Below are positions 837 through 62,761 of a DNA stretch of 64,000 nt, piece by piece. Numbering within the stretch: the stretch's first letter is position 1; each line of letters opens with the position of its first letter. The position numbers and the translations under genes were made by a program. The DNA comes from Cedecea neteri (lineage in GTDB: Bacteria; Pseudomonadota; Gammaproteobacteria; Enterobacterales; Enterobacteriaceae). The notes below the pieces were generated by a model, which had not been told where the DNA came from, ran no database searches, and worked only from the letters and a program-made list of their open reading frames with translations. The stretch lies in NCBI RefSeq assembly GCF_000758325.1, contig NZ_CP009459.1:806001-870000 (forward strand), read 5' to 3'.

Positions 837-922
837 CCCTCACCCCGACCCTCTCCCTAAAAGGGAGAGGGGGAAACAAGCCACAGCCAGTAGTGTTTAT
901 TGCCGCCCTCTCCGTGAGGGGG
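837..922. repeat. CCCTCTCCC-type hairpin repeat between yhhY and ggt
   Basis: CCCTCACCCCGACCCTCTCC then AAAAGGGAGAGGG forms a strong hairpin (837-873). A second, weaker arm CCCTCTCCGTGAGGGG follows at about 905-921. It lies between the convergent 3' ends of yhhY and ggt. The same family occurs at 8372-8464, 14250-14348 and 61850-62422. Confidence 0.8.
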
Positions 923-8371: not shown

Positions 8372-8464
8372 CCCTCTCCCCTTTGGGGAGAGGGTTAGGG
8401 TGAGGGGCAAGAAAGACGGAGTGGCCTGATGCCCTCACCCCAGCCCTCTCCCACAGGGAGAGGG
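8372..8464. repeat. Inverted pair of CCCTCTCCC-type hairpin repeats
   Basis: Copy 1 (8372-8406) reads CCCTCTCCCCTTTGGGGAGA then GGGTTAGGGTGAGGG. Copy 2 (8432-8464) reads CCCTCACCCCAGCCCTCTCC then CACAGGGAGAGGG. They are oriented head to head with a 25-bp linker, a BIME-like arrangement. They lie between ugpB control sequences and the end of the liv operon. Confidence 0.85.
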
Positions 8465-14249: not shown

Positions 14250-14348
14250 CCCTCACCCTAACCCTCTCCCCAAAAGGGAGAGGGAATAAACAATGTTCCC
14301 CGTCGGCCGTTTTCCCCCTCTCCCTCTGGGAGAGGGCCGGGGTGAGGG
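14250..14348. repeat. Inverted pair of CCCTCTCCC-type hairpin repeats
   Basis: Copy 1 (14250-14284) reads CCCTCACCCTAACCCTCTCC then CCAAAAGGGAGAGGG. Copy 2 (14314-14348) reads CCCCCTCTCCCTCTGGGAGA then GGGCCGGGGTGAGGG. Head-to-head with a 29-bp linker, between the convergent panM and livJ genes. The layout mirrors the pair at 8372-8464 and the two edges of the array at 61850-62422. Confidence 0.85.
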
Positions 14349-61849: not shown

Positions 61850-62362
61850 CCCCTCACCCTAACCCTCTCCCCAAAGGGGAGAGGGGACTGAATTGCGGTA
61901 AGCATTAACCCCTCACCCTAACCCTATCCCCAAAGGGGAAAGGGGATTGAATTGCGGTAAGCATTAACCCCTCACTCTAGCCCTTCTCCCCAAAGGGGAA
62001 AGGGGATTGAATTGCGGTAAGCATTAACCCCTCACTCTAGCCCTCTCCCCAAAGGGGAAAGGGGATTGAATTGCGGTAAGCATTACCCCTCACTCTAGCC
62101 CTCTCCCCAAAGGGGAAAGGGGATTGAATTGCGGTAAGCATTACCCCTCACTCTAGCCCTCTCCCCAAAGGGGAGAGGGGACTTGAATTGCGGTAAGCAT
62201 TACCCCTCACTCTAGCCCTCTCCCCAAAGGGGAAAGGGGATTGAATTGCGGTAAGCATTAACCCCTCACCCTAACCCTCTCCCCAAAGGGGAAAGGGGAT
62301 TGAATTGCGGTAAGCATTAACCCCTCACTCTAGCCCTCTCCCCAAAGGGGAGAGGGGACTTG
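61850..62362. repeat. Nine-copy tandem array of a 58-60 bp hairpin repeat
   Basis: Units start at 61850, 61909, 61968, 62028, 62086, 62144, 62203, 62262 and 62321. Eight are complete, the ninth loses the tail. Each has a CCCTCACYCTARCCCTCTCC arm, CCAAAGGGGARAGGGG closing the hairpin, and a unit tail GAATTGCGGTAAGCATTA. Differences between copies are few (CACCCTAA or CACTCTAG; GAGAGG or GAAAGG; TTAA or TTA at the joint). Period changes of one base come from small indels. This is a recent expansion of the hairpin family found singly at 837, 8372, 8432, 14250 and 14314. Confidence 0.97.
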
Positions 62363-62384
62363 ATAGAGCACAAGCCTTTGATTT

Positions 62385-62422
62385 TCCCCCTCTCCCTTCC
62401 AGGGAGAGGGTCGGGGTGAGGG
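62385..62422. repeat. Inverted hairpin copy closing the array, abutting DUF559 gene
   Basis: CCCCCTCTCCCTTCCAGGGA then GAGGGTCGGGGTGAGGG lies in the opposite orientation to the nine tandem units. It ends on the base before the stop codon of the DUF559 gene. The layout array-plus-inverted copy equals the pair at 14250-14348 with one arm amplified. Confidence 0.9.
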
Positions 62423-62761
62423 TCACAGCTCACTCAGATCCTGCAAAATCACCGTCAACACCCCCTCCAGATTCTCCCGCAGCTCGTTATTCCAGAATCG
62501 CCTCACCCGCCACCCTTGCTCATTCAGATACTTCGTTCTTCGTTCATCATAGCCCCTTTGCATCTCATGCTGCCCGCCGTCCAGTTCGATCACCAGGCGA
62601 GCAGCGCAGCAGGCAAAGTCCACGATATAAAGCCCAATCGGATGCTGCCGCCGAAACTTATACGTGGCAAAACGCCTGCTGCGGAGTTGATACCACAGCA
62701 AGTTCTCTTCGGGAGTCATCTGCCGCCTGAGCTGGCGGGCATAACGTCGGATCGGCTGCAT
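62423..62761 (-). CDS. DUF559 endonuclease-like protein (Vsr/PD-(D/E)XK fold)
   Basis: 112 aa. Conserved features: TPEENLLWYQLRSRRFATYK (N-terminal helix with EExLW), FRRQHPIGLYIVDF (Asp48), the core IELDGGQHE (Glu59, Asp61, His65) and a final strand WRVRRFWNNEL. This is the DUF559/MTES-like branch of the very-short-patch-repair endonuclease fold. The true role is not known. No methylase gene is next to it. The hairpin repeat array touches its stop codon. The gene is separated from rsmJ by 81 bp and is not at this site in E. coli. Confidence 0.88.
   Translation of the reverse strand: MQPIRRYARQLRRQMTPEENLLWYQLRSRRFATYKFRRQHPIGLYIVDFACCAARLVIELDGGQHEMQRGYDERRTKYLNEQGWRVRRFWNNELRENLEGVLTVILQDLSEL

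Follow-up and report, generated by a model that had tools for sequence, protein, structure and literature searches.

A DUF559 nuclease gene is linked to BoxC and related hairpin repeats and is a candidate for the enzyme behind their spread

In the chromosome of Cedecea neteri, the stop codon of a gene of the DUF559 family directly adjoins a member of a palindromic repeat family, which raises the question of whether the encoded protein takes part in the spread of the repeat. We analyzed the window, a stretch of 64,000 nucleotides (NZ_CP009459.1, positions 806,001 to 870,000), together with DUF559 loci of other genomes; the features of the window are collected in Table 1. The gene lies between uspA and rsmJ on an Enterobacteriaceae chromosome, with uspB and prlC among the other neighbors in the window. 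Read from the gene, the abutting unit consists of a C-box (CCCTCACCCC), a linker, and a hairpin (CCCTCTCCC..GGGAGAGGG); the stop codon, which reads TCA on the plus strand, occupies 62423 to 62425, and the unit ends at 62422, directly before it. The window contains 22 copies of the arm CCCTCTCCC, where dinucleotide-preserving shuffles lead one to expect 0.40; none of 100 shuffles reached 22. In the whole genome, the strict form of the hairpin is matched perfectly 187 times and the published consensus arms 233 times, compared with 0 for a reversed-pattern control. A preliminary description, made from sequence alone, had stated that a genome-wide palindromic repeat ends at the base before the DUF559 stop codon and that the gene is joined to the largest array of this repeat. 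The first statement held; the 8.7-copy array beside the gene was confirmed, while its rank as the largest in the genome was not established.

Table 1. Coordinates of the DUF559 gene and of BoxC features in the window
Feature	Position	Strand	Sequence or evidence
DUF559 gene (PF04480), 112 aa	62423-62761	minus	ORF and profile match, E 1.2e-42
BoxC unit adjoining the DUF559 stop codon	62388-62422	+	CCCTCTCCCTTCCAGGGAGAGGGTCGGGGTGAGGG
Tandem array of a BoxC-containing 59-bp unit	61850-62363	+	8.7 copies, 95% matches
BoxC unit, first of an inverted pair	8372-8407	+	hairpin, then GGGTGAGGGG
BoxC unit, second of the 8372 pair	8432-8464	+	C-box, then hairpin
BoxC unit, first of a pair with inward hairpins	14250-14284	+	
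BoxC unit, second of the 14250 pair	14316-14348	+	hairpins inward
Solo BoxC unit	837-871	+	C-box and hairpin

The repeat of the window is BoxC, also called the PIT element or, in Escherichia coli, the triplex motif TMECO. The BoxC/triplex consensus, CCCTCNCCC N3-6 GGGNGAGGG N3 GGGNGAGGG, is met by the unit at 62388 to 62422 and by other window units, and the arms, loop, 3-nt linker, and third strand are identical to those of BoxC/TMECO (PMC4666352). A reading of the repeat as a terminator or RNA gene was rejected, with Rfam returning only subthreshold matches to eukaryotic miRNAs that arise from low complexity. Reports of BoxC go back to the 1990s; Holder et al., in a survey of 2015, tied the motif to instability and reported no mobility gene near its sites (PMC4666352). 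It has been an orphan family until now; yet element 9 of that survey, which is the original envM (fabI) BoxC, adjoins ycjD (PMC4666352). The E. coli K-12 gene ycjD carries a DUF559 annotation; its stop codon lies inside a degenerate BoxC hairpin, and an inverted BoxC partner follows about 180 bp beyond. At the sites corresponding to window positions 8372 and 14262, the intergenic DNA of congeners is too variable for site comparison. As a separate observation, two congeners (G499 and G500; loci L260, L261, L268, and L269) have a longer, unlike repeat inserted at the orthologues of these two sites, in the place of the BoxC units or arrays seen in other species; the insert is hundreds of base pairs long and has segments common to both sites.

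The DUF559 protein was modeled with AlphaFold (pLDDT 92), and a sequence profile search was run besides. Foldseek matched the model to the PDB entries 3hrl, a Neisseria DUF559 protein (4e-7), 3r3p, the EDxHD homing endonuclease I-Bth0305I (8.5e-5), and 1vsr, the repair nuclease Vsr (0.05). E19, D48, D61, H65, and D72 are invariant among 37 diverse DUF559 sequences, and the spacing of the first four (29/13/4) equals that of the residues assigned to the active site of VsrA (PMC12907096). By fold and active-site residues, DUF559 is thus predicted to be an EDxHD/Vsr-like nuclease, its cleavage activity being inferred. VsrA is a DUF559 protein of Caulobacter that causes an SOS response in cells without the methyltransferase ScmA; its authors proposed it as a very-short-patch repair enzyme, a role that would entail nicking of T:G mismatches and partnership with a cytosine methyltransferase and that was inferred without biochemistry (PMC12907096). 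Because VsrA is needed for DNA damage signaling in the methyltransferase-less cells, the family is suggested to be active in vivo.

Linkage between the gene and hairpins is not confined to Cedecea. Among 80 DUF559 loci from many phyla, in which pyrimidine-first hairpins were counted, 76 have a hairpin within 150 bp (66 of 79 on the 5' side, 71 of 78 on the 3' side). Hairpin density is 7 to 8 per kb within 150 bp of the gene versus 0.13 to 0.3 per kb beyond 1 kb, or about 40 times background, and purine-first hairpins are far rarer near these 80 loci than pyrimidine-first ones. At least one side has a hairpin within 150 bp at all 26 loci of a phylum sample and at all 40 loci of a paralogue set; fused multidomain DUF559 proteins showed no such linkage (1 of 10). 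Outside Enterobacteriaceae, units usually border both sides of the gene as inverted copies, with the C-box facing it. The arm motif differs by lineage (for instance, CCCTCCCCC, CCTTCTCCC, and ATCTCCCCC), and the same plan recurs: a C-box, a linker or second small hairpin, and a pyrimidine-first hairpin.

Within Enterobacteriaceae, strong matches of the single-domain type occur in 19 of 149 genomes, and the C-box/hairpin unit lies directly 3' of the gene at 17 of the 18 loci tested and 5' at 1 of 18. The window gene conforms to this one-sided arrangement, having a 3' unit and no inverted ends on both sides. These loci are not all independent, because they fall into few conserved contexts, chiefly fabI-sapF and uspA-rsmJ. 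Tandem hairpin arrays are found near 12 of 164 DUF559 genes versus 1 of 130 distant windows. Arrays of the hairpin unit were also observed beside the gene at 5 of the 18 Enterobacteriaceae loci (L001, L005, L006, L010, and L012), and in three genomes of the family (G064, G120, and G141) divergent DUF559 genes have divergent hairpin variants alongside, of the CCCTCCCCC, CTCCCCCTG, and CACCCCTCC types (loci L017, L018, and L019).

The number of repeats in a genome also follows the gene. In 347 Pseudomonadota genomes, we scored strong DUF559 matches (E below 1e-20) and hairpins of the form CCYYYYCCC-N2-8-GGGRRRRGG with a cutoff of at least 10. The cutoff was reached by 86 of 100 genomes with a strong match but by only 20 of 247 without (odds ratio 70, P = 2e-46), and the association remained when stratified within families (z = 8.4). 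In Enterobacteriaceae, at least 10 BoxC hairpins are present in 16 of the 19 carriers, as opposed to 7 of the 130 remaining genomes. GC content as a confounder was rejected, since the reversed pattern was not associated with DUF559 in the same 347 genomes (P = 0.37). RAYT (Y1_Tnp, PF01797) was likewise rejected as the driver of the hairpins, there being no association in these 347 genomes (odds ratio 0.71, P = 0.16, z = 0.28) and no Y1_Tnp match in the genome of the window, which has a single DUF559 gene.

There is evidence against a strict dependence. The 20 hairpin-rich genomes without a strong match (e.g., G201 and G019) could possibly be explained by loss of the gene after amplification; a DUF559 remnant lies beside BoxC in one of the 7 BoxC-rich Enterobacteriaceae genomes counted above, and most of the 20 are unchecked. 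Conversely, 14 carriers have fewer than 10 hairpins, some of them with variants outside the search pattern. The association is present in genomes above 2.5 Mb, and among smaller genomes 1 of 5 carriers reaches 10 hairpins. In other phyla, 409 copies were counted in a Planctomycetota carrier, 41 in one of Nitrospirae, and 40 in one of Dehalococcoidia, while several carriers have few or no hairpins of the searched form. Three genomes of one genus (G324, G356, and G379; family f13, genus g178) have 17 to 19 purine-first matches and no pyrimidine-first ones, which may reflect a separate repeat family.

The preliminary description had further suggested that DUF559 might spread the repeats as RAYT spreads REP units. 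Linkage and co-occurrence support this suggestion, and the enzymatic role is still an inference. Both checks that it had named, the distance of hairpins from DUF559 genes and the lack of repeats in genomes without one, came out positive in the above-described counts, and neither of the outcomes that would have refuted it (no enrichment near the gene; many repeat-rich genomes lacking it) was met.

The units are specific to their genes. Genomes contain up to ten DUF559 matches, and at 40 loci in 11 genomes the two units flanking a gene, 5' and 3', resemble each other far more than they resemble those of its paralogues (0 of 2,000 permutations). Paralogues of the same genome mostly share 35 to 69% identity, with one pair at 93%, indicating that recent duplication is rare. 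As a point against DUF559 as the driver of the units, protein identity and unit similarity are only weakly correlated across loci (Mantel rho 0.15), and for within-genome pairs covariation of enzyme and unit was not significant.

Beyond what had been suggested before, the gene with two inverted ends forms a mobile cassette outside Enterobacteriaceae. We describe it in two genera, labeled Xanthomonadaceae and rhizobial-type by inference from neighboring named loci. In the Xanthomonadaceae genus, a cassette with 42-bp inverted hairpin ends occupies one locus in 2 of 16 species (including G237), and 12 congeners without it have a closed site, with the flanking genes 38 to 127 bp apart; the 42-bp end recurs at about 21 further sites in the cassette-bearing genome, and none is listed in the congeners with closed sites. 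In the rhizobial-type genus, a cassette of 510 to 549 bp (about 525 bp), with DUF559 between 52-bp inverted hairpin ends (87 to 98% inverted match), is present at 17 places. The interiors are at least 81% identical, similarity falls to near random past both ends, and no two copies have both flanks in common. Inverted ends around a gene, many loci, and empty sites are traits of insertion sequences, although the window gene is not two-sided. Pairs with the ends of the cassette and no gene also occur at a site where another genome holds the gene (L287 and L289). No target-site duplication was visible in the flanks of the cassettes or at E. coli hrpB-mrcB, the intergenic DNA being too variable to resolve one. 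The DNA flanking some cassettes (L274, L276, and L285) contains an additional inverted repeat, most marked at L276 (local score of 30 versus a mean of 7.7 between elements); such flanks look as if the cassette might have entered a larger palindrome or mosaic repeat.

Two rival explanations concern the nuclease itself. The main one, which we regard as unlikely, is that DUF559 is a selfish nuclease of the homing type that invades preexisting hairpins spread by other means and copies itself by break repair. In its favor, the EDxHD homing endonuclease I-Bth0305I is among the closest solved relatives, the gene lies between two inward C-boxes where standalone inverted pairs hold a short spacer, and the gene-less pairs at the cassette-occupied site fit it as well; homing accounts for the cassette. 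However, repeat-rich genomes that lack the gene should then be common, and only 8% of gene-less genomes have at least 10 hairpins. Every paralogue has its own unit variant, dispersal of units in the Xanthomonadaceae genus is seen only where the cassette is present, and the dependence of repeat number on the gene is explained less well. The second rival, very unlikely in our judgment, is that DUF559 is a Vsr-like mismatch repair nuclease and that the adjoining hairpins are incidental, as terminators or passive insertions. The fold resembles that of Vsr, and the VsrA proposal points the same way (PMC12907096); but that role is itself inferred without biochemistry, and repair does not predict two-sided inverted units, the co-occurrence with its odds ratio of 70, paralogue-specific ends, or mobile cassettes.

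A third rival holds that units and gene are spread together solely by general recombination and replication slippage at triplex or hairpin DNA, the nuclease being a passenger or a cutter that limits the repeats. Site differences among E. coli strains bear on it. Most are deletions or collapses between repeats (tauD-hemB and alx-sstT), and at hrpB-mrcB strain E1739 lacks the whole BoxC pair; because the tauD-hemB and alx-sstT alleles resemble deletions or collapses, no duplication can be called from these strains. As a side observation, alleles at tauD-hemB, hrpB-mrcB, and alx-sstT (L204, L205, and L207) resemble arm-to-arm collapses within a BoxC pair or deletion at TTGGGGA microhomology, in agreement with the "palindromic effect" of Holder et al. 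Slippage is supported by the tandem gain, loss, and collapse that distinguish intergenic sites, by the instability reported for the motif in a survey that found no mobility gene (PMC4666352), and by the excess of arrays near DUF559 genes. It does not, however, carry a 525-bp cassette with sharp ends to new loci, and it leaves the dependence of copy number on DUF559 unexplained; we hold it, too, to be very improbable.

Our preferred reading, which we consider likely, is that the DUF559 nuclease acts on the C-box and hairpin unit and drives its spread, together with that of its own gene when flanked. The fold and active-site set, the cross-phylum linkage, the co-occurrence, the matched ends, and the multisite block with empty orthologous sites are established computationally; recognition, cleavage, and copying are inferred. 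In the proposed mechanism, the small metal-dependent EDxHD nuclease would recognize the hairpin, which might extrude on single-stranded DNA during replication, and nick at the unit border, and host repair would copy the unit elsewhere; with the gene between two inverted units, the whole cassette would spread too. Hydrolysis alone provides no chemistry for strand transfer, which limits the proposal, and a hydrolytic nuclease would need host repair or replication for copying, for example, at lagging-strand extruded hairpins or triplexes. The DUF559 of Enterobacteriaceae, with its 3' unit and few conserved loci, may be a settled, RAYT-like driver of gene-less copies, namely, dispersed solo units, inverted pairs, and local tandem arrays.

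A bolder reading, which we see as much reason to accept as to doubt, is that there exists a new class of mobile DNA with hairpin- or triplex-forming ends whose only protein is a stand-alone EDxHD nuclease of about 110 aa, and that most of the abundant G-rich palindromic repeats of bacteria, BoxC included, are its gene-less offspring. This class would extend over Pseudomonadota, Nitrospirota, Chloroflexota, Planctomycetota, relatives of Cyanobacteriota, and CPR bacteria. BoxC has been an orphan since the early 1990s, with no mobility function set beside it in the 2015 survey, and DUF559 is the best candidate so far for the enzyme that spreads it, without biochemical evidence that it binds or cuts the hairpin. 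Searches on DUF559 together with palindromic repeats, REPINs, or Vsr-like proteins gave no earlier report of its link to the hairpins in the literature covered, which left out most subscription journals. Since a candidate is present in E. coli K-12 (ycjD, adjoining fabI), where BoxC and related G-rich repeats came from becomes a directly testable question; if the proposal is true, a widespread "unknown" domain gains a function, and an arrangement like that of REP and RAYT evolved a second time, around an unrelated nuclease.

Three known systems invite comparison. DUF559 shares its fold and the corresponding acidic and histidine residues with I-Bth0305I and Vsr, both of which act in mobility or nicking; unlike them, it comes without an extra DNA-binding domain or an intron host, and inverted hairpin units of its own flank it. 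The cassettes resemble insertion sequences and MITEs in having inverted ends around one gene, gene-less derivatives, and empty sites, but they contain no DDE, HUH, serine, or tyrosine recombinase, their ends are hairpins, and DUF559 paralogues within a genome are mostly divergent. There is also a likeness to REPtrons (REP/REPIN with TnpAREP/RAYT), in which palindromic extragenic units, tens to hundreds per genome, also stand singly or in inverted pairs and border the enzyme gene (one-sidedly in Enterobacteriaceae here), copy number tracks the enzyme, and a genome often has several enzyme-unit families (PMC8266576). However, RAYT is an HUH Y1 transposase (PF01797), whereas the present protein is EDxHD/Vsr-like (PF04480); the GTAG/CGTC tag at the foot of the palindrome is missing, and in its place there is the C-box CCCTCACCC, which can pair with the hairpin in a triplex. 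According to PMC8266576, evidence for mobility of tnpAREP is lacking, whereas the DUF559 cassette is itself found at many sites. On the simplest account, gene and units probably constitute a REPtron-like system, its function being inferred, that is built on an unrelated enzyme and lies outside the RAYT family while being alike in its working.
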